A DNA stretch of 64,000 nucleotides from Alloascoidea africana (lineage: Eukaryota > Ascomycota > Alloascoideomycetes > Alloascoideales > Alloascoideaceae), in assembly GCA_030581615.1 (NCBI GenBank), contig JAKTTT010000022.1, positions 1 through 64,000 on the forward strand, in the 5' to 3' direction. Below, piece after piece: positions 25,407 to 45,264 of this stretch. The translations under genes and the position numbers were made by a program. Positions within the stretch are counted from its first letter, which is position 1. The number at the start of each line of letters is the position of its first letter. The notes below the pieces were generated by a model. The model worked only from the letters and a program-made list of their open reading frames with translations. It was not told where the DNA came from and did no database searches.

Positions 25407-25966
25407 AGACACGTCTTCGTCTTCTTCATTTGAAGCTTGAGGTTGGGTGCGATCTAGTACGTGCTGTGTCTCTGACGCAGACACGGCCGTAGAGTCCTGT
25501 TCTTCCTTCAAAAGCCCTAGTCAGTATCATACTCTGTCGCAAAATAGGAGAAAGAGCAGTATCGCACACGCTTACACGATTTATACTATCCATTTGTCAG
25601 TATCGTACCGTATCGCGATTTCTTTTGCTTCTTTCACATTACAGACAACACCCACACACCCAAAGGCCTCCTCCAATTTCAAAACCGTTGAAATCGAGCT
25701 GTCTGCTTTTCTTCGATTGGGATCTTCAGTTTGCGGATCTAGGCAGGTAGTGCGCAGTTAGCCAAGCGTATACGCTGTAACTGCAATCTCTATCGTGGAT
25801 TCTGGGTACAAGGGCTTCGCAGATCAACAGTCATGCTGATGAGTCAGCGCTGAGTAACCCCCAGGCGGGTCTCTCTTCAACAGCTCCAAACAGCCAGAAT
25901 GGCGCAGAGGCTTGACCATCGACCACTGAACACTGAACACTGAGGAGCCACGCGAGACGTCAAGCC
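25407..25966. promoter_or_regulatory. Divergent SDC1/TLG1 promoter, possible SDC1 5' micro-exon
   Basis: Contains on the minus strand an ATG at 25593 followed by GT dinucleotides, and a branch-plus-acceptor like TACTGACTAG ending at 25516. Splicing these could extend SDC1 by about 40 residues in frame, but the phase-correct donors (GTATAA or GTGTAA) are not the usual form. Otherwise promoter for both genes; no other gene seen. Confidence 0.4.
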
Positions 25967-30797: not shown

Positions 30798-32207
30798 CTA
30801 ATCCTGATCGACTAACCGATCCATGTCGGCGCTGCTGCTCCTTTTCCTTTTCATGCCCAGTCTTTCATCAATGACACATTCAACAACATCATTGATTGTT
30901 CTTGTCTGTAGCAAGAATCGTTCCTCCTGAAACTCGCTAAACTCTCTCAGCGTCTTGTTAAAGTTTTGGGTAATGATGTTGATGGTCTTGATGAACCGAT
31001 CGTTCTGCCTTTGGAAAAGCTCATCGTGGATCCGTGCCAGGTTCGAAAGCAACGTGTTTTGGTTCACCAGAATCTCATCAAGCTTTGCAATAGTGGCTTT
31101 ACCCTGTGAATATACCATCTTCTGGAACGCTGCAGGTCCCATAGGCACAGAAAAGTCAACGCCAGAGTCTGTTATAACATCGGATTCGGTAACAGAATCA
31201 GAACGAGCGCATGAGCCAGCGCTTGCCGAAGCACCTGCCCCTGTGAAATTGTTGTAGATGGGAGTGTGAAGCGTTTCCCGAATTTCATCATGTTCCAGCA
31301 GTTGCTTCTTTGCAGGTGGTGGTATAGCCAGGTAAGAATTCTCACCACTTCCATGTTCTGCCATTGCCATTGCCATTGCCATAGTGGTTTGCATTTGCAT
31401 TGGCAGGATTTCGTCAAAGAGATAGGGAGGAGAACTTGTTTTCAGATCGTGTTCCCGGCCAATAGCACTGCTACCGTTGCCGGAAGAAGCGCTTGTTGAA
31501 TTGCTTCTGTGTGAGGTTTTATTTAGTCTGTTCAATGATTTTGTAGCACGAAGTTCCTGCTTCGCTCTTTCAGTTTCAAGCTTTCTCTGCTTGATGACCT
31601 CGTTGATCCTTGCCAGAAGCTCTGCAACCACAGGGTCCTCATTTGCCTTGTTGTATCTAGAAATGCGGCTACTGCTTCTTCCCTTTGAGGATGCACCGTT
31701 TTTGGTCTTTGTCTTCCCGCTGGATCCTTCTCCACTGTCCTGGTTGATCATCTCGTTGAAATGATCCTGACACAACCGGTAGTACGGTTTGACCGTGACG
31801 TTGTAACCGTGCTCATTGAGCGCTTTCAGAAACTCGTTTGAAAAATGCTCCCAGGTCTTGTTCGTCTCGCCATACCTAGCAGAAAATGGTTCCAGCTCCA
31901 GGACCTTGGTCAAAAAAAGCTGATCAAACTCGGGCTTGAACCTGAACTTTCTCTTCTGCGTGGGCACCGCGCTCGAAGGCGACACGGCGGTGGGGCCGGG
32001 GGCCCGGGCCCGGGGCGAAGTCGAGCTTGCAGAAAGCGAACCAAGAGGCATCTCTGTAAACAGAGAAGCCAGATCTGCCAGAGGAGGGATGGAAAGTTTT
32101 GAAAGATTGCCATACTGGAAGATCGAGGCTGAGGACGCGGTCGAGGAGTCCGAGGCCTCGGACTGCGGCGTCGTGGAGGTGGAACTGGGCTCGTAGACCA
32201 GATGCAT
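30798..32207 (-). CDS. Unknown protein with a SANT/Myb-like domain
   Basis: 469 residues from the first ATG of the frame (32207). Residues 1-95 are Ser/Thr/Pro-rich. About 98-160 form a helical, aromatic block (KPEFDQLFLTKVLELEPFSA, TWEHFSNEF, VKPYYRLCQDHFNEM) with the spacing of a Trp-containing SANT/Myb-like DNA-binding fold. Then a basic Lys/Ser/Arg linker, a predicted coil with many Arg/Glu/Lys, and a C-terminal heptad-like segment (KLDEILVNQNTLLSNLARIH onward) that could oligomerise. The end is basic (KRKR). A DNA-binding regulator is my inference; I do not recognise an ortholog. Met-Ala and Met-Gln repeats occur near residue 280. Confidence 0.75.
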   Translation of the reverse strand: MHLVYEPSSTSTTPQSEASDSSTASSASIFQYGNLSKLSIPPLADLASLFTEMPLGSLSASSTSPRARAPGPTAVSPSSAVPTQKRKFRFKPEFDQLFLTKVLELEPFSARYGETNKTWEHFSNEFLKALNEHGYNVTVKPYYRLCQDHFNEMINQDSGEGSSGKTKTKNGASSKGRSSSRISRYNKANEDPVVAELLARINEVIKQRKLETERAKQELRATKSLNRLNKTSHRSNSTSASSGNGSSAIGREHDLKTSSPPYLFDEILPMQMQTTMAMAMAMAEHGSGENSYLAIPPPAKKQLLEHDEIRETLHTPIYNNFTGAGASASAGSCARSDSVTESDVITDSGVDFSVPMGPAAFQKMVYSQGKATIAKLDEILVNQNTLLSNLARIHDELFQRQNDRFIKTINIITQNFNKTLREFSEFQEERFLLQTRTINDVVECVIDERLGMKRKRSSSADMDRLVDQD

Positions 32208-32355: not shown

Positions 32356-32405
32356 ACACCCGTACGCCCGCATGGCGGGGGCGGGGGAACACGCGCGCGC
32401 ACGTG
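32356..32405 (-). promoter_or_regulatory. Rap1-like site with nearby CACGTG
   Basis: ACACCCGTACGCC at 32356-32368 matches the yeast Rap1 consensus at 12 of 13 positions; a CACGTG lies at 32400-32405. It sits about 150 bp upstream of the SANT-like gene and downstream of the polyol dehydrogenase stop. Binding factor inferred from consensus only. Confidence 0.4.
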
Positions 32406-33899: not shown

Positions 33900-33927
33900 C
33901 ACGTGGATGGCACGGGTGCACGGGTGT
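33900..33927 (+). promoter_or_regulatory. CACGTG plus GGGTGCACGGGTGT element upstream of the Sgt2-like gene
   Basis: GTCACGTGG (core 33900-33905) is followed 8 bp later by GGGTGCACGGGTGT (33914-33927), 63 bp before the start codon at 33991. The same 14-mer occurs upstream of PKC1 and the Rtg3-like gene. Its complement ACACCCGTGCACC differs from the Rap1 consensus at one position. Confidence 0.6.
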
Positions 33928-33990
33928 CTGGACTCAGATCTGGAATCGCCACAAACTTTGCTTGACAATTTGCATTTGCATCTCGGTGAA

Positions 33991-35559
33991 ATGTCACAAT
34001 CTGAGCTGGTGCTTGCAATAGCCGACTATCTGAATGGCTGTGTCCTCTATAACCGGGTCCCTTTTGACCGTTCAGAGGGAATTCAGTTTGTCGTCAGCCG
34101 TTTGGCCGACATGTTTGACATTCCTCAAGACCAAATAGATAGCCCTGAAAGGACTGCTTCGGTGGACCCTTTCCGATTAGAAGTCGCCTTCCGCCGATTG
34201 GAAGATACGCGGAACATTACAACACCTAGTTTAACCGAATCTCAGACTCAAGCTCTGTTGGGAGAAGGAGGAGAAACTGGTGATTATCTCAATGCTGGTA
34301 ATATAAACATGCATCAGAAGCAGTTTGCCTTAGCAGTTACAAACTATACTCTGGCAATAGCCCTGAACCCTGAAGAGGCGAGATCTTTTAACAATAGGGC
34401 CGCTGCTTACGCGGCTCTAGGAGACTTTAAGAGTGCCGAAATTGATGCAAAGAAGGCAACGACTCTCGATGAGAACTATCCCCAGGCATGGGGTAGGTTG
34501 GCCTATATGCAGTTCAAATTGAACGATCTGGAAGGCGCCGAAAACTCCTATAGCAAGGCTGTTACCATATGTTCGCAAATACTAGAGGATGAATCCTATC
34601 AACAAGACAAGACCTCCATTCGGGTTCTCCTAAAACAAATGAAGGTTGGCTTTGACGGAACTAAAAGAGCTCGAAATAACCCCTCTCAAGGTGCAAATAA
34701 TGCAGGCTCAACCTTCACACAACCAGGAAATGGAATTGAGTTGCCACATTTTGTGCAACAGATTGACAGCTATTTTCAGAATCATTTTTCTGGCCAAAAC
34801 AATGGGAATGCAAATGGCAATGCCGCAGATCAACAGCAAGCGAACGCTACTGTAAACCTGATGACAGAGATTCAAAATTTTGCTCAGCAGTTTACTAACC
34901 CATCAACGGTACACAATGATAATGGAGCAAATGCTAATCCCAGTGGAAATAACAACAACGCGGGTCAGAATCAAAACCAAAATGAGACGCAAACGCAAAC
35001 GCAAACGCAAACGCAAACGCAAACGCAAACGCAAACGCAGACACAGACACAGACACAAACCCCCCAAGATGAAAGCAGTGCTGGGACACAGCACGTGGAG
35101 AACACCAACCGTTCCAACGTTCCCACCAATGACTACCCTGAAGTTGCTTCTTCTGCTGAAGGATCTATTAACCAAGATGATCCTGATACCATGGACATCG
35201 ATGACCTTGAGCCACCCCGAGCTCAAACTACCCATCAATCTGAAACTCAGCAAACCCAGGAGCAGAGTACTGATACGACTCCAAATCCAAATCGGCTTCA
35301 CAATGTTATTTTGGACGGAGTAGATTCACTACTGAGGAATGTGTTTGCAAATGAGAGAACAAATGTACATTCCCAAGTTCATGCTATAAACACACCAGAA
35401 TCTCCTGCCAACATTGCATCAGTGATCACAAACTCGTTCCGGTCAATACTCGATACGGTGGCGGAGCAGCAGTCTCGACCACGGCAGCAGCAGCAAGCTA
35501 GACAAAATACAAATACATCTGGTAATGATTTTTCTATTCCTGAAGAGGACCTTGATTGA
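33991..35559 (+). CDS. Sgt2/SGTA-like TPR co-chaperone
   Basis: 522 residues. The N-terminus (LAIADYLNGCVLYNRVPFDR, VSRLADMFDI) resembles the homodimerisation domain of Sgt2, and three TPR motifs follow at about 105-210 (NMHQKQFALAVTNYTLAI, EEARSFNNRAAAYAALGDF, AWGRLAYMQFKLNDLEGAE). Sgt2 hands tail-anchored proteins to the Get pathway and binds Hsp70/Hsp90 tails. The rest is unusual: an Asn/Gln-rich stretch, a Gln-Thr repeat at about 332-356, and a C-terminal helical part instead of the Met-rich NP-repeat region of classic Sgt2. Hence I call it Sgt2-like, possibly a diverged paralog. The start at 33991 was chosen because the Sgt2-like part begins there. Confidence 0.75.
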   Translation: MSQSELVLAIADYLNGCVLYNRVPFDRSEGIQFVVSRLADMFDIPQDQIDSPERTASVDPFRLEVAFRRLEDTRNITTPSLTESQTQALLGEGGETGDYLNAGNINMHQKQFALAVTNYTLAIALNPEEARSFNNRAAAYAALGDFKSAEIDAKKATTLDENYPQAWGRLAYMQFKLNDLEGAENSYSKAVTICSQILEDESYQQDKTSIRVLLKQMKVGFDGTKRARNNPSQGANNAGSTFTQPGNGIELPHFVQQIDSYFQNHFSGQNNGNANGNAADQQQANATVNLMTEIQNFAQQFTNPSTVHNDNGANANPSGNNNNAGQNQNQNETQTQTQTQTQTQTQTQTQTQTQTQTPQDESSAGTQHVENTNRSNVPTNDYPEVASSAEGSINQDDPDTMDIDDLEPPRAQTTHQSETQQTQEQSTDTTPNPNRLHNVILDGVDSLLRNVFANERTNVHSQVHAINTPESPANIASVITNSFRSILDTVAEQQSRPRQQQQARQNTNTSGNDFSIPEEDLD

Positions 35560-36467
35560 TATAGCATCCTTTTTTACGTCTGTTCTTTGTATGGTAAGTA
35601 AGGTTTTGTTTTTTCAAGTTTGAATTTTTGGACCTCAATGATGATTTACCAAAAATCTGCAATTCTGAGTTCGTTTTCTTGTAATGCCGAGCCTTCTCTT
35701 ATTCTATCTAGAACTATCCCTTGGTTTCGATCAAGGTGAATACTAGACTGGTTTAGAGGAGAATCTCTCCGTTATTTGGGAACGAATCATGCGGATAAGA
35801 ATATCACAAATTCACAAATATCTGAGTCCTGAAGCACAATTTTTCTATCAAATAAGCGTCAATTTAATATTATTCCAAGACTAACACACAAACAATAGGA
35901 ATCTTGTCGTTCCCTGGTGCAACGATAAATTTGATTTCTTCTCATGCCTAAACCATTATTTTGGTTCTCAACTTTTTTACAGCGTATCCGTCTTTGCAGT
36001 AATGATAAAAGGGTTTATATGACCGTAAGCGAGATCACAGCTAAATCTCGTGGGGTGTGTCATTCGTAGTAAGAGTACTAAGCTCTCTAAGCTCATCACT
36101 TTAGAATGATTTAAATTGCAAGTTTCTTGCTTGCAATAATTGCACATATTACTTTTAAAACAGGGTCTTATGAATATTAGAGCCATGCTAAACTTATAAA
36201 GTTCGATTAAAGAATACTATTCACATACGACTTGGACATGAGAACAAGAAAGACCAATAAAAAAACAATTAATTATGTGTATTGCAATGACAAGAAACCA
36301 AACTCAATCAATCAACAAATCGCCAAAGGTAGTTTTCTTTTCCTTTTTCTTTTTTTTCAAAACACCAAAAATACAAGTCTTTTCCATTGTGATGATAATA
36401 ACGAATATATAAAACAGTTGGCATTTACTGTCCTTCTCCTCTTTGCTTCTATTCTCTCTGGAAAAGT
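35560..36467. other. Convergent intergenic region, AT-rich
   Basis: 3' flanks of the Sgt2-like gene and PKC1, 908 bp, with no supported gene or RNA. Confidence 0.5.
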
Positions 36468-38109
36468 CTAAACTATATCATCCCTCATATAGGAAAAGCC
36501 CCTAAACTTCTCCTGCATCTCTGCTGTTAATGTGGTTGTAACAGGAGTCAACTTGGGAACCTCACTCGTAAACTCTTGGTCAAAATGGCTAATATCGTTT
36601 GCGTACTCTACTTTTGGTCGATATGGAGGAGCCACTCTTCGCGCCAACATATCATCAAAGTTCACATTCCGGAAATATGGGTGCTCCATAATCTCTTCGG
36701 CATCTCTTGGGCCCGATCCAATCCGCTTCTCAGGGTCTCGTGTGAGAAGTGCCTGCAAGATGGAGACAGAGTCGCGATGCATATGGATGGGATAAAGTGG
36801 TTCATCAGACAGAATTGAATCAAATATCTCATCTTCATCCTCACCCTTGAAAGGAGATTGACCTAGCAGCATCTGATAAAGAAGAACACCAAAGGCCCAC
36901 CAATCAACGGCTTTTCCATACCCTTGCTCTTTCAAAATCTCCGGGGCCATAAACTCTGGTGTTCCACAAAACGTTCCGGTTGTCTTGCCATACCACATCT
37001 CCTCTTTACACAAACCATAATCCGCAATCTTTATATGGCCATCTGTTGTCAACAGAATGTTGTCGAGCTTCAAGTCTCTGTAAATGACACCATTTGAGTG
37101 GAAATACTTGAGTGCGAGCAAGACCTCTACTGCGTAGTATTGAGCCCGGCGTGGTGAGAACCGTTCTTGTTGAATGTGCCACATCAAGTCACCACCGCTA
37201 ACATACTCCATGACAAAGTATATTCTATTTTCCGTTTGGAAACAGCAGTAAAGGCTAAGCAAAAATGGATGCTGCTCCTGATTTGCAATCAAAAATACCC
37301 GCTTCTCAGACTTGGTGCTGCCAACCTCATCGTTTTCAATAATAAAGTCCTTTTTCAAAACCTTGATCGCATACAGTCTTTTTGTATGTCTTGACTCTGC
37401 AAGCATTACTTTACCAAAGTTACCCTTACCTAAAACTGCCAAAAACTGGAAATCATCAAGACCAATCTTCTTTCTCGCGTGAGACCTATGTCTTCCATGA
37501 CCTCTTCTCCTTGGTGAGGGTGTTCCGTTAGAGTCTACATTTGGTGCTGTGACCGTTTGTGTTGTGGGGCTCTGCTGAGGGATTGCACTTGTTGGAGTAG
37601 TCACTGGAGTCAACTGTGTCATATTATCACCGGTCAGAGGCTTGCTCGTTTGCGGTTCATGTTGTTCAGGACCAGGACCCATATCGGGCTGTGGGAGCGC
37701 ATGATGTTCTTCATGTGGTTGTTGTTTTTGACCAGGGTAGATCGGTCTGGAAGGAGAAGGCTGTGCAGAATTATCATGTTGGTAATGAGGTTGTGAAATG
37801 GAATGGGTAGGGGAATGCTCTGATTTGCGAGGAGATTGTTGTTGATATTGTTGATAGTTCTTGGACGGGGAAGAAGGGGGTGGACGTCTACCTTGAGCAT
37901 ACGGCACAGGCTTGACGGGTTCAACATACTGTCCCCTTCTTTGAGCAGTAGGTAGCTGGCTCTCATATGTCTCAGTAGGAGGTAGTGGTGGTTCGTCCTG
38001 AGAAGCGCCATAACCACCAGAAGGATAGACTTGCTGAAACTTGTTTTGATTTTCATACCTGTCATTCAAACTCAGATCTTGAACAGGCAAATCTAAAGGT
38101 TTTTGTGCT

Positions 38110-38144
<35 letters not shown>

Positions 38145-40257
38145 TTGAGCTTGAGCTTGAGCCTGGGCACGAGCTTGGGCTTCAGCTTGAGCTTGGGCTT
38201 GAGCACGGGCTTGAGCCTGAGCCTGAGCCTGAGCTTGAACGTGTGTTTGGGTTTGAATCCTATGTGCCTGGTTCTGCTGTTTTGCGGTCTTGATCGTGGT
38301 CAAAATTGTACTTGCCATCTTCATGTCCATCCCTCCGCAAAAATCAGGCACCAAATGAGCACAATCAACATGACACATTGTTCCACACTCAGTGCATCGT
38401 CTGACATTCTTTTTTCCCCATGGAAGCAAATATCCACAATGGCAACACCAATTTGTGCCCTTGTTGTTGTAAGGCTCAAACCTATGTGGAATGCGATGGT
38501 TCAGTTTCTCTTCGTCGGGGTCAATGTCGGAGCTGGATCTCGCAATACACTTTGTAACCACGTTTTGGTGACATTTTTTGTGGCATACGAACCTGCAGTC
38601 CATACACTGATAACCATTGGATCGGAGAAATTCACCACAGACCGCACAGCATAGAATATTGTAAAACTGTTTTTGTACAAATCTATGGCCATGCTGCTGA
38701 ACAACCTCTTCGTTCTTCATGCGAATAGCACCATGACGATCTAGACCGCCCAAACCACCATCCTTACGGCGTTTCTCTGGAGCCACGCTCTTTGTGAAAC
38801 CCATAGAAAGCTGGATTCTTCCAGCAGGTTCCATAACAAACCATTCCTTGTTGAAAGCTCTGTTACTGGTGTTGGATCCATTATTAGCTCCGCCAGGAGG
38901 TTGACCAGCACCAGTTGCTCCCCCGGCACCCAGTGGCTGAGAACCGGTCGGGCCATACATTTCCACTCCACCCGAAGAGCCCGATTTGTTCTTCATAGTA
39001 TCGGCACTGACCCATCCTGCATTGCCAAACTCTTGCTTAAACTTTTGCATTCTAATCTCGCCTGCTAAATCCGAAAGCAGGATCCAAGCCATTGCCACGG
39101 GCACCAAATGATCCCCGATCTTGTTGTAGACAGTCAATTCGACTTCGTTTCCCTTTTCGATGGACAAATTAAACTCTTCATTCCATCGATCGTAGCGAGT
39201 GGGCTTTGTCTTTGCCCTTTGCTGGTCATCAATTTTCACCATGATGATGGATTCGGGACTTCGGGAGAACATGGGCGATGCGACGTGGTCCACATCTTTG
39301 ATTGCGTGGATCACAAGAGTAAATGTACCAGAGAGAGGACGCCGACGGCCTTTTAAAGTGGTGATGCCATCTGTTTCTTTTGAAATGTCATCATCGTAAT
39401 TGATGTAAATGTCTTGGTAGCGTTTAAGAGCCTTTTTCAGGAGCTGGATCTTTTGATTGCTTTCTACCATGCCACCCTGGGCGGCAGAGCTGCTCTGTCT
39501 GTCGCCATCGATCTGGTACAACTTTGAAATTTTTTCGTTTGCCTCCTTATACTGTTTTTCGACGGCGAGCTTGAATTCCAGCTGTTGAAGCATGTACTGG
39601 ATTTTTTGGCCCAAAGAGGGACACTCATACTTGATCAGATCTGGAACAGGGGGGGTAGATGAGAGTGTTAGGGGGATGTGTGTGTGATGGATCTTGGCAT
39701 AAATGAGGAGGGCAAAAACAAATACAAATACAAACCTAATCCAGAGTAGCTTGTTTGTCTAACGTTTGTAGCAGAGGAACTCGCTAATAATAACAAAAAT
39801 GGTAATAAGAACAATAAATAGTCAGTCAGTGAGATTTCGCGAGCAGGGATTAGCCACTAGCCAGCCCCTACTAACCCTCCCCACGGCAAGAAAACACAGA
39901 TCCTGTCAGTTGTTCACCAGCACGACAGGGGAGGATCAGAAAATGGAAAAAAAGGGGGTATAGAGCCTAGCAGGAGCAAGCTACAAACGTACCACTATTT
40001 GCCGTGTAGTCCGGGATCAGGGTCGATCCGGTTGTCGAGAGACGCTTCTTCTTGACCTTGAGGTCCTGGAGCGACTGCTGGAAGTAGTCAATGTTCTTGT
40101 TTGCCTCGAGGATGCTGGCAGCACAGCGCTCCTTAATTGCCGGGTTCGTGGTGCTCTGGCTAAGGTTGCGGGCGCCAATGGCAATGTTCTTCTCGCGTTC
40201 GATCTTGCGGTAGATGTCCTGGATGACAGGGTCATTGTCCAGCGAGTCGTCGTCCAT
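36468..40257 (-). CDS. PKC1: Protein kinase C, Pkc1
   Basis: Exon 39993-40257 and exon 36468-39640 (352-bp intron, donor GTACGT, acceptor TTCCAG) give 1,145 residues, close to yeast Pkc1 (1,151). The join restores LIKYECPSLGQKIQYMLQQL, the second Rho-binding HR1 repeat; the first HR1 is in exon 1. Then a C2-like domain (about 140-270), two C1 zinc fingers (about 400-530, HRFVQKQFYNILCCAVC and HRFEPYNNKGTNWCCHCG), a long Gln/Pro-rich linker with a Gln-Ala repeat, the AGC kinase domain (glycine loop GKGNFGKV near 825, YRDLKLDN near 942, GTFCGTPEFMAPE) and the tail motif FRGFSY. Pkc1 is the Rho1 effector atop the cell-wall integrity MAPK cascade. The promoter is only 102 bp, bounded by the NTO1 stop. 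Confidence 0.97.
38106..38240 (-). repeat. Gln-Ala coding repeat inside PKC1
   Basis: A degenerate hexanucleotide array (units such as GAGCCT and GAGCTT on the plus strand) encodes about 20 Gln-Ala pairs with occasional Arg/Glu changes, between the C1 domains and the kinase domain. Both Ala and Gln codons vary, so selection on the peptide or old slippage is likely. Confidence 0.9.
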
Positions 40258-40320
40258 GGCTGCTTGCTACCTGGCGTTGTTGTTGTTTGTTGTGGTGGTG
40301 AGGACTCGGCAAGGCATGGA

Positions 40321-40358
40321 CGGGTGCACGGGTGTTCCCGCGGTCCCGTGCTCACGTG
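40321..40358 (-). promoter_or_regulatory. GGGTGCACGGGTGT element plus CACGTG upstream of PKC1
   Basis: The plus strand reads CGGGTGCACGGGTGT at 40321-40335, 63 bp before the PKC1 start codon, with a CACGTG at 40353-40358. All of it lies within the 102-bp gap between the NTO1 stop and the PKC1 start. Confidence 0.6.
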
Positions 40359-40359
40359 C

Positions 40360-42762
40360 TCACGACAGCACCACGCGGTTACCCTCCTCGTCACTCAACG
40401 GGCTGCCGCCCAGTGTTACCCGCCGCGCAGCCCGCCGCCCGACCCACTCGCCGGGACCCGGTCCCAGCGCCTGCTCCAGCGCCTGCTCCACCGCGCGTCC
40501 GCACGCCGCTAACCCGGACCGCGAACCGGGCAGCGTCCGTCGGCGCCCCGGCCCCACCGGGTCCCGTGGAACTGTACCCAGCACCGACTCCACGGCCTCG
40601 CGCTGGACCGCCAGCAGCTCCATCTTGGAGGCCTCCCGCCGGCAAACCAACCCGACCAGCTCTCGCAGCTGGTGGAGATCCCCAAGCAACCCGTTCGCAA
40701 ACTCCAGCAGCTCCTCGTTCTGCTCTTCCTGCTCAAAGTCGGCCGGTCGCTGCTGGGACACAAACACAGGCTCAAGCCGTTTGATCAGGCCGGCTCCTCG
40801 TTTCATCTCTTTTTTCAAAACCCAGTACCGGCAGATTTCAGATGCGAGCTCTTTCGACTTGGGCACAGCATTTTTGTTCAAGAATTTGACCAGGCTTTCG
40901 TAGATTATAAATGGCGGAATCGGTATTCCGGCCCTTGTTTTCCATTTTCTCCTTCGTGGCCCTTTCGCCGCGTCCCCATCTTTTTTCTTTGGTATCAAAC
41001 TGATTGTAACCTTTAGCGATGGTTTCCCGTTCGGCCTTGTAGATTTGATAACTGAAACTCTCCCGCCGGTTCCATTTGTCTGTTGCTGTTGGCGTGCCAG
41101 AAGCTTCTGTCCAAGCTCATAGTAGTGTTCCTGGGCAGCCAGTGTCTTTTGCACAACATTTCGCTGTTCTGCCCATTCGGGAGGACAATGCTTATCGCAG
41201 AACGTGCTCAATGGATAGGAATGCTCCAAAATGGCCTGGATTCCTTGCTCGACTTTCAAATACAGCCCTGCTCTTTGGGCACACGTAACATGATATGCTC
41301 GGAAACAGTTTTTGTTACAGCACTGGACACAAGCTCCCACCTTGCGCTTGCAAATGTAACAGATGAGCTTCCATCTCCCCTTGGGAATGCGCTCCAATCC
41401 CTCGATCGGCTCCATATATATGCTGTTTCCAAAAAACACTTCGGGAATCCATAAAGAACACGCCACATGAGCCCATCGACTATCCTCGGTCTGTTTGAAA
41501 GCCCCCGTTGTGTTCGGACAAAAGATACAATGCAGCTTTTTCTTTCTTGAAACCAGACACTTGCGACAAAGCCACTGGCCTTCCGGGATGAAAGGAACCC
41601 CGTAGCATTCTTGGTGAACGGCCATGTCACATCCATCACAAAAAATGATCGCGTTACTGTTATCGCATTCACTCTCGTTACAAATAGCACACGTTTGATC
41701 ATCTGAGACGTTTGTTGTTGTGTTTGTATTGGTGCCCGATAACGAGGTGGTGCCAGCACTTCTGTTGCCGTTCTCGTTGACCATGTCTCGTTCATTATTG
41801 ACTGCTATCCCATTTGTACCTGCACTTCCATTGGCTCCCTTGCGCACTTTTGGAGGCAGTTTTTTCTCAATCTCATACCATTCTTTCTCTAACAGTGTTA
41901 TTAGTGCCTCAAAGAGCTCGGGGCTGACCTCCAGGTCATTCTTTGTCAGTGAGGGCTGCACTGTTAATTGAGAGCTTCCATTGTTCAGCCTTCTCCGTTT
42001 ATTCAGCCCATTTAAAAAGTTCGAATCCTGTTCATCCATGTCGTATTCAATGGTAACTCTCCCGCTTGTCGCCATCTGAAACAGCGGGTTCGCTTCATTT
42101 CTTTGTGTTTTGCGCGGCGGAATCAAAACGAGTTGAACATCATCTTCTGGCACAGCTATTTCTTCCTCCTCTTCCTCCTCCATCGTGGGGCTATTTTCCA
42201 TGTTTATTCGACCTCGATTCCTCATAGCCAAATTAGCTCGAATATACTCATCCGAAATGCTAAAACCTTGTGTTTCTGGTCCGTTTCGTACCATTTGTAA
42301 AGCCTTTCCATCGTCATCTCCTCCTGTACGATGACGATTAGGGGTTGTTTCCTGGCTTGCCAAAGCTGGTGTCGTCACTTCAATTTCGTTTCCCACATGT
42401 TTGTGTGTTTCGTTATCTGTTTCCTTGGCTGTGTTATCGGTCCGGGCTTTATCGCGCGTTCTTAACCTCATCGACAAATCCGTTGAGCCTAAAGTGACAT
42501 TGTTCTTGGGCCCTGGGTCGCTACCCGTAACCTCAGAGTCCGTGGTAGCGTCTCTACTACCGTTCGCAACAACTATGCCCTCATTCTCGATCTTTCTACC
42601 GGTGATGAAGACTTTAAGAGGCTTTTCCGAGTCCAAATCAGGGTAAAGCTCTTCAAAGGGTATTTCTTCGCGCGGCTTCTGGGGCTCCAATGGCGCAGCC
42701 GAGCTGGTACGGACCACGCCAGATGTTCCTGCCAATGCACACAGTTTTTGCCTTCCTCTCAT
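40360..42762 (-). CDS. NTO1: NuA3 histone acetyltransferase subunit Nto1 (PHD protein)
   Basis: 800 residues (yeast Nto1 748). Central PHD finger at about 355-400 (CAICNESECDNSNAIIFCDG, MAVHQECYGVPFIPEGQWLC), then a zinc knuckle and extended PHD (CIFCPNTTGAFKQT, WAHVACSLWIPE, CYICKRKVGACVQCC, AYHVTCAQRAGLYL) up to about 530, the BRPF/Jade-type arrangement that binds histone H3. The N-terminus holds an EPL1-like stretch (EEIPFEELYPDL). Nto1 links Sas3 acetyltransferase to H3 tails in NuA3. The last 80 codons are much more GC-rich than the rest and Gly/Arg/Ala-rich, possibly a recent extension. Confidence 0.93.
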   Translation of the reverse strand: MRGRQKLCALAGTSGVVRTSSAAPLEPQKPREEIPFEELYPDLDSEKPLKVFITGRKIENEGIVVANGSRDATTDSEVTGSDPGPKNNVTLGSTDLSMRLRTRDKARTDNTAKETDNETHKHVGNEIEVTTPALASQETTPNRHRTGGDDDGKALQMVRNGPETQGFSISDEYIRANLAMRNRGRINMENSPTMEEEEEEEIAVPEDDVQLVLIPPRKTQRNEANPLFQMATSGRVTIEYDMDEQDSNFLNGLNKRRRLNNGSSQLTVQPSLTKNDLEVSPELFEALITLLEKEWYEIEKKLPPKVRKGANGSAGTNGIAVNNERDMVNENGNRSAGTTSLSGTNTNTTTNVSDDQTCAICNESECDNSNAIIFCDGCDMAVHQECYGVPFIPEGQWLCRKCLVSRKKKLHCIFCPNTTGAFKQTEDSRWAHVACSLWIPEVFFGNSIYMEPIEGLERIPKGRWKLICYICKRKVGACVQCCNKNCFRAYHVTCAQRAGLYLKVEQGIQAILEHSYPLSTFCDKHCPPEWAEQRNVVQKTLAAQEHYYELGQKLLARQQQQTNGTGGRVSVIKSTRPNGKPSLKVTISLIPKKKDGDAAKGPRRRKWKTRAGIPIPPFIIYESLVKFLNKNAVPKSKELASEICRYWVLKKEMKRGAGLIKRLEPVFVSQQRPADFEQEEQNEELLEFANGLLGDLHQLRELVGLVCRREASKMELLAVQREAVESVLGTVPRDPVGPGRRRTLPGSRSGLAACGRAVEQALEQALGPGPGEWVGRRAARRVTLGGSPLSDEEGNRVVLS

Positions 42763-43693
42763 GTATTCTGTCCGTGTAGTGTGCTTGCGCTACAAAAGAT
42801 AAGGAGGCAACACGAACAAGGGCTTGCACTAGCAGAGTTGGAGTTAAAAGAGCGTGCGTGCCGTGATTGTGGGCTTTGGCGGTGTAGTGTTGTTAGAGCG
42901 CAACCCCAATTTTTCCCCAGCATGTATTCTCTATTATACTGATACAGCGAAATGTCAAAAACAGAAAATAATATAAATATAGAATAGCAAGCTGTTTTGG
43001 CTATAAAAAAAAAAGGCTCAACAGCGTATATGATAATAGTAATAATAGTAGTAATCCATCGTGCGTGTAACAATGCCAACGAGAACGAGAAAAGTAGTAA
43101 CCTAAGTTGAGTTTGTCATAATCTGTTTCCTTTACTTGCAATTCATTCCTCATCCAATGCTTCTTGCTGTGGCTTTTCAAAGGCAAAGAAATACCAAAAA
43201 AAAACAAAAAAACAAAAAAAAATAAAGAATTAACCATTGTCTGAACGTTCAAACCAACTGATTATTGCACATTTATGGGCACATCAAAAAAGGCAATATA
43301 TGGGATGACGGTTTCAACCTGATACATTCAAAAACGCTAAAAATGTAACAAAAACATGGGACCCCAGTGACTCGATAAATCAATCAATGAATAATGTAAA
43401 CGCAACCAGAGAAGGCCAAAAAATGGGAAAAAAGTGATGTTAATGGAGAAACCAAGGTAAAGTCGACCGAAAAAAATCAGTGATATAGAGGGAACGTCGA
43501 TAACAGAGAGGCAAAGCAAAAAAAATAATAGCAATAAGAGGTCGCAGCAATTTCTTTCTTTTTCTTTTTTCCTTCCTTCAACAAGCCGCAAATGAATGAG
43601 GCAAACAAATCAAATCAAATTTCATTTGCAGTATCCATAAAACAAAAAAACGAAACAGAACAATGGGGGAAAAAAACCTCATCCAAGCATTTT
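42763..43693. other. Intergenic region upstream of NTO1
   Basis: 931 bp of A/T-rich sequence with A runs, holding the NTO1 promoter and the 3' flank of the bHLH gene. No supported gene or RNA. Confidence 0.5.
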
Positions 43694-45142
43694 TCATACA
43701 ATGGTGTTTCTCTGGCGTCGAGATAACTCACTCTCGAATCGATCCAAATCATCAATGTTATCAAAATCCGTCGAGGCTGCAGTTCCAGTGCCTGTTATTC
43801 CACTCAAGCTTGGATCAACAACCGGCATGTTTCTGTTCCCATTGTTGTTGTTGTTGTTGTTGCTATTGACCTCACCGATGATACTGGAATCGGGGAAAAA
43901 CACGTCTTCCTGTTTCGGAATAATGTATTGTGAAAAGCTTTCGGTATTGGGATCAACGGCAAACCCAGTGGCACCTAGTTGCTCTTGTTTGATGGTGCCA
44001 ATGCTGGCAGGCACGCGTCGGAGTTGTCCCGCTGAGGAACCCCCGAGTCCTCTCAACTTTTCGATTTTTGATCGTAGTTCTGCTTCTTTTTGTCTCTGCA
44101 ACTCCACAATGTTCTGCAGAAACTGGATGTATTCGACCGTCTTTGTGAGAATTGTGCCCTTATTAGGCTTTGAACTGTCTTTCCCGCCAGTCTCACCATT
44201 ACTACCGCTGTTGAGAAGCACTGGGGGTACGAGCTCACCCAGTTCGCGTATACGTTCCTTGATATTGTCTCGTCTTCTTCGCTCCACCGCGTTATGAAAT
44301 TCCCGCCTTCGTTTGGCTTTTTCTTCCTTCGTCAGATTGCGAACGTTTGTGGTTTGATGTGTGCTATTTGTGCTACCACCGCTGCTGACTCCGGCACCAG
44401 CTCCTGCTCCAGCTGATGCTGCTGCCGCCGCTGCTGCTGCTGCACTAGTTCTGGATCCCGTGGGGAGTGCCCCCATCATGGTTCCACCAGCACTGGACTG
44501 TCTGTTTTGATTTGGCAATGTCATTGGAGACAGAGGATACTGGGAAGGGCTCGTGAGCCCTTCTGGATCAAAAGGTGGCGGGGATGTGTAAGCAGAGTCG
44601 CCGGTTGTCAGCAATGGATTCCCCAGGCCAGGCGGAGAAAAGAACTGGGGGCTGTGGAGAGACGAGAGGGTAGGCGGAGAGTGGTAGTCATAACCACTGC
44701 CCAGGCCAAGGTTATCGTGGAGGTCGTTAGGGTTTGAAAGCACTTTTGTGAGTAAAGAGTCGTCGAATGAGCCTGGGATGCCGATGGGAGAAGTGGACAG
44801 CGGCGATCTGCTGGACATGTAGCCCGCGGAAGGGCTGTTAAACTGGTTCATCATGGGAGGCGGTGACCGCGTGGGGCTCTGGCCATATATGGGGATGGAG
44901 CGGTCTGTGCCCATGGACAGAGCGGCGTTGGGATCTTCGTGGCCGCCGCTGATTCTTCGTGAATCAACACCAGAGACGGAGCTGGGAGGGCCAAAGGCCA
45001 GGGCCAGTTTCTGGTGCGGCAGGAGGTCGTCTGTGCCATACTGCGGAGGCATCATGAAGTTGGAGGAGTAGGCCGCGGCGTCTGTGCTAGCGGGAGGCGA
45101 CTTTCTGAGCGACGATGGGTCCTTTCTGTGGATACTGTCCAT
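43694..45142 (-). CDS. RTG3: bHLH transcription factor, Rtg3-like
   Basis: 482 residues from the ATG at 45142; the frame is open further upstream but reads as promoter. The N-terminal half is Ser/Pro-rich with poly-Ala and Gly-Ala runs. The bHLH at about 280-350 starts with EFHNAVERRRRDNIKERIRE, having the His-Glu-Arg triad that reads CANNTG-type boxes, a loop of variable Ser/Gly sequence, and helix 2 KGTILTKTVEYIQFLQ running into a coiled heptad region. The block HNAVERRRR...IRELG...VPP plus PNKG.IL.KTVEY is that of Rtg3, which with Rtg1 drives mitochondrial retrograde genes. Poly-Asn and a C-terminal acidic FDNIDDLDRFE segment follow. Assignment to Rtg3 is by family resemblance. Confidence 0.82.
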   Translation of the reverse strand: MDSIHRKDPSSLRKSPPASTDAAAYSSNFMMPPQYGTDDLLPHQKLALAFGPPSSVSGVDSRRISGGHEDPNAALSMGTDRSIPIYGQSPTRSPPPMMNQFNSPSAGYMSSRSPLSTSPIGIPGSFDDSLLTKVLSNPNDLHDNLGLGSGYDYHSPPTLSSLHSPQFFSPPGLGNPLLTTGDSAYTSPPPFDPEGLTSPSQYPLSPMTLPNQNRQSSAGGTMMGALPTGSRTSAAAAAAAAASAGAGAGAGVSSGGSTNSTHQTTNVRNLTKEEKAKRRREFHNAVERRRRDNIKERIRELGELVPPVLLNSGSNGETGGKDSSKPNKGTILTKTVEYIQFLQNIVELQRQKEAELRSKIEKLRGLGGSSAGQLRRVPASIGTIKQEQLGATGFAVDPNTESFSQYIIPKQEDVFFPDSSIIGEVNSNNNNNNNGNRNMPVVDPSLSGITGTGTAASTDFDNIDDLDRFESELSRRQRNTIV

Positions 45143-45205
45143 GTCCCTTGGATTGGCATTGGGGGCAGCCACGAAGGAGCAAAATGCCAAAGCGAGAGAT
45201 GGAGG

Positions 45206-45264
45206 CGGGTGCACGGGTGTAGCCACAACATGCAACATGCACAACATGCAACATGTGTAACATG
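45206..45264 (-). promoter_or_regulatory. GGGTGCACGGGTGT element and AACATG repeats upstream of RTG3-like gene
   Basis: The 15-mer CGGGTGCACGGGTGT (45206-45220) lies 63 bp before the start codon, the same distance as in PKC1. Immediately upstream five copies of AACATG occur in 38 bp (45227-45264). Confidence 0.55.

Follow-up and report, generated by a model that had tools for sequence, protein, structure and literature searches.

The Rap1 consensus of Saccharomyces cerevisiae is ACACCCRYACAYM. In Hansenula (Ogataea) polymorpha, in which RAP1 is duplicated, published work gives BCGGTGYAVGGRTGY as the Rap1A motif of ribosomal-protein promoters, reports that CACGTG is enriched in the same promoter set, and shows that GTGC-containing oligonucleotides are bound by Rap1A with dissociation constants of 10 nM (RPS0a) and 1.4 nM (RPL5a) (PMC6510891). 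In Kluyveromyces ribosomal-protein genes, Rap1 and Mcm1 sites are helically phased at 54, 65 and 74 bp, a partnership attributed to a common contact with TFIID (PMC6173580). CACGTG, the Cbf1 site, is itself described as the site of a nucleosome-depleting general regulatory factor (PMC2897762). Here, we describe a 14-mer, GGGTGCACGGGTGT (ACACCCGTGCACCC on the opposite strand), that is present in three exact copies in a 64,000-nucleotide stretch of Alloascoidea africana contig JAKTTT010000022.1 (hereafter, the window). The best explanation is that this 14-mer is very probably a general promoter element bound by Rap1 and sometimes paired with a CACGTG E-box.

In our best reading, the 14-mer would be a further instance of a known Rap1-type site. 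Like the S. cerevisiae site, it consists of two hemi-sites with equal spacing, and both ACACCCGTACACC and ACACCCATACACC are abundant in this genome; unlike it, it has a G instead of an A at position 9. The original prediction had placed the element one mismatch from the Rap1 consensus, and this holds for the comparison with ACACCCGTACACC, which itself occurs 121 times in the genome against a single control match. Because the 13-bp core of the 14-mer, GGTGCACGGGTGT, fully fits the H. polymorpha Rap1A form GGTGYAVGGRTGY, this mismatch corresponds to an accepted variant in that yeast (PMC6510891). RAP1 is duplicated in both yeasts. However, three differences stand out: the base preceding the core is G here and C in the Rap1A motif; the sites lie at ribosomal-protein genes in H. 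polymorpha, whereas no such gene was found among the 37 Pfam-named frames near our sites; and the H. polymorpha Rap1 pair has distinct, overlapping preferences, whereas the recognition-helix segments of the pair described here are almost identical.

Genome-wide enrichment of the 14-mer and its family

We searched the genome to which the window belongs (23.18 Mb, 138 contigs). The 14-mer was found 101 times and its backward-read control not once, and equal base use would predict about 0.2 copies. In the window, four matches with at most 2 mismatches were found, whereas 100 shuffled versions averaged 0.18. The 14-mer is real and enriched. Three copies within 11.3 kb are not striking as a cluster, about 0.12 such triples being expected genome-wide.

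Other sequences of the same type were also enriched: ACACCCGTACACCC had 93 genome copies against 0 in the control, and ACACCCNNNCACC had 572 matches against 45. A manual count of the 100 ACACCCNNNCACC matches listed (contigs C1 to C5) gave the centres GTA (28), ATA (24), GTG (18) and ATG (4), that is, an R-T-R centre in 74 matches. Since R-T-R centres dominate the matches listed, we regard the 14-mer as one sub-class of a Rap1-type family, ACACCCRTRCACC. This family was then scanned in 264 kb, comprising the window and twenty 10-kb stretches, with the 14-mers masked and the reversed motif as control. At 0 to 1 mismatch, ACACCCRTRCACC gave 9 matches against 0, and all 9 lay outside called coding sequence, which spans 46% of the scanned bases.

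The sites in the window

The three copies are located where the original prediction had put them, and two of them have a CACGTG 8 to 17 bp further upstream, as it had also reported. A fourth Rap1-type site was detected in the window, also accompanied by an E-box.

33914..33927, minus strand: Rap1-type site ACACCCGTGCACCC, exact match, 1 of the 101 genome copies
33900..33905, no strand assigned: CACGTG E-box, 3' of ACACCC with a gap of 8 bp
40322..40335, minus strand: Rap1-type site ACACCCGTGCACCC, exact match, reading in the PKC1 sense
40353..40358, no strand assigned: CACGTG E-box, gap 17 bp, 5' of ACACCC
45207..45220, minus strand: Rap1-type site ACACCCGTGCACCC, exact match, upstream of the RTG3-like basic helix-loop-helix (bHLH) gene (ATG 45142, minus strand)
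32356..32368, plus strand: fourth Rap1-type site ACACCCGTACGCC, one mismatch to ACACCCRTRCACC
32400..32405, no strand assigned: CACGTG E-box by the fourth site, gap 31 bp from ACACCCGTACGCC

The first site lies between two divergent genes and upstream of both, an SGT2-like gene (ATG 33991, plus strand) and a dehydrogenase gene (start 33747, minus strand). The second lies in a gap of about 100 bp that separates PKC1 (minus strand, ATG at 40257) from its upstream neighbour, a gene encoding PHD and EPL1 domains that ends with a stop at 40360 and that we take to be NTO1-like. The RTG3-like gene has no CACGTG in the 700 bp preceding its ATG. The fourth site is located 155 bp upstream of a minus-strand gene (30798-32207).

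Distance and orientation relative to start codons

Measured from the GTGCAC centre, the distance to the ATG was 72.5 bp for the SGT2-like gene and 69.5 bp for both PKC1 and the RTG3-like gene, in good agreement with the values of about 72, 70 and 70 bp given in the original prediction. The SGT2 and RTG3 frames have earlier in-frame ATGs. The later starts are nevertheless supported, since an SGTA dimer-domain match, although weak (20.4 bits, under its 26.8 cut-off), starts at residue 31 of the open reading frame, the later SGT2 ATG being residue 29, and since the later RTG3 start aligns, as read by eye, with the start of the RTG3 duplicate on contig C57. By manual reading, the PKC1 start belongs to a short first exon that is followed by an intron, and it resembles the start of the PKC1 duplicate.

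The context was read at the 3 sites of the window and at 41 of the other 98, and a usable start call was obtained for 21 of these 44 sites (3 in the window and 18 outside). The remaining 23 either lacked a called start in their vicinity or were excluded: L032 because the called ATG was 11 bp away and uncertain, L034 because it lies inside a called frame, and L031 and L023 because the nearest called starts were 899 and 1033 bp away. Starts were called with a simple codon-pair model, and one gene was chosen at divergent sites; the gene not chosen was 173 bp away at SGT2 and 416 bp away at L036, and the frames overlap at L016 and L049. Alternative nearer in-frame ATGs are present at L015 (195 bp) and at L049 (90 bp).

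Outside the window, the distance from site to ATG ranged from 62 to 497 bp with a median of 118.5 bp (n = 18). It was 60 to 80 bp at only 3 of the 18 sites and 60 to 140 bp at 13; with the window included, 19 of 21 sites lay 62 to 249 bp from the start call. The near-constant distance of about 70 bp proposed originally is therefore not borne out at the 18 other sites. We take the gene-proximal position of the 14-mer as real. Regarding orientation, ACACCC read in the sense of the chosen gene at 16 of 21 sites (P = 0.027); without the three window sites, this was 14 of 18 (P = 0.031). The trio itself is mixed, the SGT2 site being opposite to the PKC1 and RTG3 sites.

Association with CACGTG

CACGTG was found within 60 bp of the centre at 13 of the 44 sites, compared to 0.2 predicted from random positions and 1.9 from control promoters (n = 58), the latter being the fairer comparison for E-box counts. 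At 11 sites, the E-box within this distance was CACGTGA/TCACGTG, that is, it had the T/A flank that Cbf1 sites often have.

We then counted genome-wide the pairs of E-box and ACACCCRTRCACC site at gaps of 0 to 60 bp, in which a few sites or E-boxes are counted twice. The E-box was 5' of the site in 41 pairs and 3' in 15, and controls gave 0. This one-sidedness was strong in the GTG sub-class (26 versus 5; P = 0.0002), and the counts were 9 versus 1 in the ATA sub-class and 0 versus 1 in the ATG sub-class. It may in part be a consequence of general promoter layout. The 5' gaps of the GTG class also clustered with a period of about 10 bp (P = 0.00175 for periods 10 to 11; n = 24), the peak lying at 10.0 among periods from 4 to 15.5. 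For this set, the more distant E-box of each of two pairs was left out, which reduced the gaps from 26 to 24 and changed P from 0.0006 to 0.00175. As the phasing test was chosen post hoc, after the data had been seen, the phasing is suggestive only. No phasing was seen in the 3' E-box pairs.

A partner site at helically phased distances from a Rap1 site recalls the Rap1-Mcm1 arrangement (PMC6173580), but here the partner is CACGTG, the gaps in the GTG class are 7 to 49 bp and the genes are diverse. A limited literature search, covering titles and the openings of abstracts, returned no description of a Rap1-CACGTG composite; among the entries returned was PMC1488866, which concerns the spacing of factor sites and frequently mentions Cbf1. 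The order and phasing with which E-boxes accompany GTG-class sites are the only aspect of these findings that could be new.

Two sites share a common upstream layout, L031 near 4994, at a gene encoding WW and rotamase domains, and L049 near 994, at one of the RAP1 genes: two E-boxes 11 bp apart, with gaps of 38 and 49 bp to the 14-mer. Reb1-like sites near the 14-mers were considered and rejected, the GGGTAAC k-mer signal vanishing against control promoters (TTACCCG at 4/44 sites versus 7/58 control promoters; GTTACCC at 6/44 versus 6/58).

Candidate factors

Two Rap1 paralogues are encoded in the genome, each with BRCT_2, Myb_Rap1, Rap1-DNA-bind and Rap1_C domains over cut-off and each with matches among PDB chains that bear the name Rap1. 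The two proteins share 47% identity across 590 aligned positions. The segments that we take to be their recognition helices, HTAASIRDRYRRVL and HSGNSYRYR[Y/F]RKV, are identical between the paralogues except for one Y/F, and differ from those presumed to correspond in S. cerevisiae Rap1 (1ign), HTGNSIRHRFRVYL and HTENAWRDRFRKF. A literature search on the recognition helices found no paper. Taken together, the motif match, the genome-wide enrichment and the two paralogues with a Myb DNA-binding region lend good support to the Rap1-like factor predicted originally.

For the partner, two Cbf1 paralogues were identified; in the PDB, both are matched best by Centromere-binding protein 1 (Cbf1; E = 1.2e-27 and 3e-28). 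Rtg3-like and Pho4-like bHLH proteins are also encoded and could bind CACGTG too. Our survey of bHLH genes gave 24 matches; 12 stretches were fetched, and 5 of them yielded a bHLH frame by pattern. The two Pho4-like frames look alike, one (L085) having matched Pho4 and the other (L086) having been judged by eye. The situation resembles that of the Cbf1 site in the earlier description (PMC2897762) in that CACGTG occurs in promoters (6/58 controls) and Cbf1 genes are present. The proposal of a Cbf1-like bHLH partner thus stands in part: the closeness of the E-box, its one-sidedness in the GTG class and the two Cbf1 paralogues speak for it, but only 13 of 44 sites have CACGTG within 60 bp, and part of the excess may reflect G+C-rich flanks.

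Proposed mechanism and points against it

We propose that GGGTGCACGGGTGT is read as a double hemi-site, GGTGC-ACG-GGTGT, by the two-Myb-domain factor Rap1, represented by two paralogues. It would act as a general promoter element, mostly 60 to 250 bp before unrelated genes. Bound Rap1 would keep the promoter free of nucleosomes and help to bring in the general transcription machinery. At roughly one in four to one in three of the 14-mers, a Cbf1-like bHLH dimer on CACGTG may assist, mostly from a 5' position and perhaps on a similar face of the helix. The GTG centre would correspond to a variant of the Rap1 site, GGTGY, that is either tolerated or preferred.

Several observations weigh against this proposal. 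The context was read at 44 of the 101 copies, and 23 of these lacked a usable start call. Two of the 44 (L016 and L034) fall within a called frame, and three more sit in upstream extensions of frames (SGT2, RTG3 and L049). In the 264-kb scan, ACACCCRTRCACC was not enriched at exactly 2 mismatches (9 versus 17 in the control), so that looser family matches are meaningless. Over a 300-bp span, the E-box excess is modest (14/44 sites versus 6/58 control promoters; P = 0.011); since CGCGC shows a similar excess (17/44 versus 9/58; P = 0.011) and the site flanks are richer in G+C (0.53 versus 0.45 in controls), composition may explain part of it. The GTA sub-class has no side preference (5' 6 versus 3' 8), and the GTA and ATA gaps taken together show no clear phasing. 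Finally, two duplicate promoters do not conform: the PKC1 duplicate has only ACACCAATACATC, at 78 bp, whose 2 mismatches put it among the matches that lack enrichment, and no site with at most 2 mismatches was found in the 600 bp upstream of the second RAP1 gene.

Alternative explanations

That the 14-mer is read by an unrelated factor, such as a zinc-finger protein or a lineage-specific regulator, with an incidental likeness to Rap1 sites, is unlikely. This would account for the rigidity of the GTG sub-class, in which 101 of 113 ACACCCGTGCANNH matches are the exact 14-mer, and for the side of the E-box, which differs between GTG and GTA (26/5 versus 6/8; Fisher P = 0.011) as a separate reader of ACACCCGTGCACCC could make it do. 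However, the same two hemi-sites flank all four centres, GTA, ATA, GTG and ATG, which make up a single R-T-R family, and GGTGY is also part of the H. polymorpha Rap1A motif (PMC6510891). Binding by Tbf1 or another single-Myb factor of the TRF type, the alternative named in the original prediction, is very unlikely even though one Tbf1 gene exists (a single match in the genome). Tbf1/TRF sites carry TTAGGG or RCCCTAA, and TTAGGG is also named in the H. polymorpha report (PMC6510891). The 14-mer has neither core, and we rejected a Tbf1 site on this motif evidence. That RCCCTAA was found by 0 of the 44 sites adds little, because it was also found by 0 of the 58 control promoters.

An element tied to the start site or to translation, at a fixed distance from the ATG, is highly improbable. 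Three distances agreeing within 3 bp at 72, 70 and 70 bp would have a chance of about 0.0025 if drawn from the observed spread, but the distances at the 18 other sites are scattered, with both orientations represented, and the site of the RTG3 duplicate lies at 98 bp. Because the agreement is what made the trio noticed, we take it to be a selected coincidence, though one that is unlikely on its face. We consider it hardly credible that 101 identical 14-mers are copies of a dispersed repeat, for example, a transposon end, lying before genes by chance: by eye, the 20-bp flanks of the 44 copies share no more than a base or two, which led us to discard this explanation, and the named neighbouring genes are diverse.

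Within the Rap1 reading, a stronger version can be imagined, in which one base splits the Rap1 sites into two working classes. GTG sites would form an ordered composite with a 5' Cbf1-type E-box at helix-phased gaps, used jointly by the Rap1 and Cbf1 paralogues at numerous non-ribosomal genes, one of them a RAP1 gene, whereas GTA sites would lack such order. We regard this as tentative and rather doubtful. Such a split could have arisen after both factors were duplicated.

Neighbouring genes and duplicate promoters

Among the 48 frames near the sites that were scanned with Pfam, 37 could be named, not each of them being shown as the gene served by the site. The names are diverse: isocitrate lyase, aconitase, porin, Cox11, Pet100, LSM, JmjC demethylase, EPL1 domain, CBM48/alpha-amylase, protein kinases and a Git3-type receptor. 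No ribosomal-protein family occurs among these 37 frames; ribosomal-protein promoters were not collected.

Duplicates of PKC1 (62 to 63% identity) and of the RTG3-like gene lie together on contig C57 (window positions 36468-45247 and C57:109447-114444; L072 and L074). The PHD/EPL1-domain gene lying between them in the window had no match there at 1e-10. At the RTG3 duplicate, ACACCCGTACACC is oriented like the site of its counterpart in the window. The upstream region that one RAP1 gene shares with a divergent Hpt-domain gene contains the 14-mer and two CACGTG. Overall, a full family site was present in both copies of 1 of the 3 duplicate pairs examined. In the TBF1 promoter (L011 478-571, contig C4), two CACGTG E-boxes lie between a pair of oppositely oriented Rap1-type sites, of which one fits the family exactly and the other has one mismatch. 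The 23-Mb genome, the paired PKC1, RTG3-like, RAP1, CBF1 and Pho4-like genes and the 24 bHLH matches suggest a whole-genome duplication or a hybrid origin with gene loss.

Other observations

At window positions 25648-25660, 312 bp before a plus-strand gene, we observed ACACCCACACACC, which resembles the telomeric form of S. cerevisiae. Inspection of 20 contig ends (300 bases each) by eye revealed no telomeric repeat. Within the SGT2-like gene, tandem CAAACG units (about 34990-35060) encode a Gln-Thr repeat run. The final bases of contig C1 (L053) look like a sequencing adapter. Contigs C7 and C10 (L064 and L068) begin with an identical sequence, which may be a long terminal repeat; in L068, a tRNA-like stretch adjoins it, as judged by eye. 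CTG usage is ordinary, at 19.4 per 1000 codons of long frames.

Significance

These data point to a Rap1-type site that would act at non-ribosomal genes of a large-genome yeast as a general promoter element, partly beside E-boxes. If the helically phased order of Rap1 site and E-box is true, it would add another case beside Rap1-Mcm1 of two general factors on one helix face, and the sharing of promoter sites by duplicated RAP1 and CBF1 genes would become directly testable.

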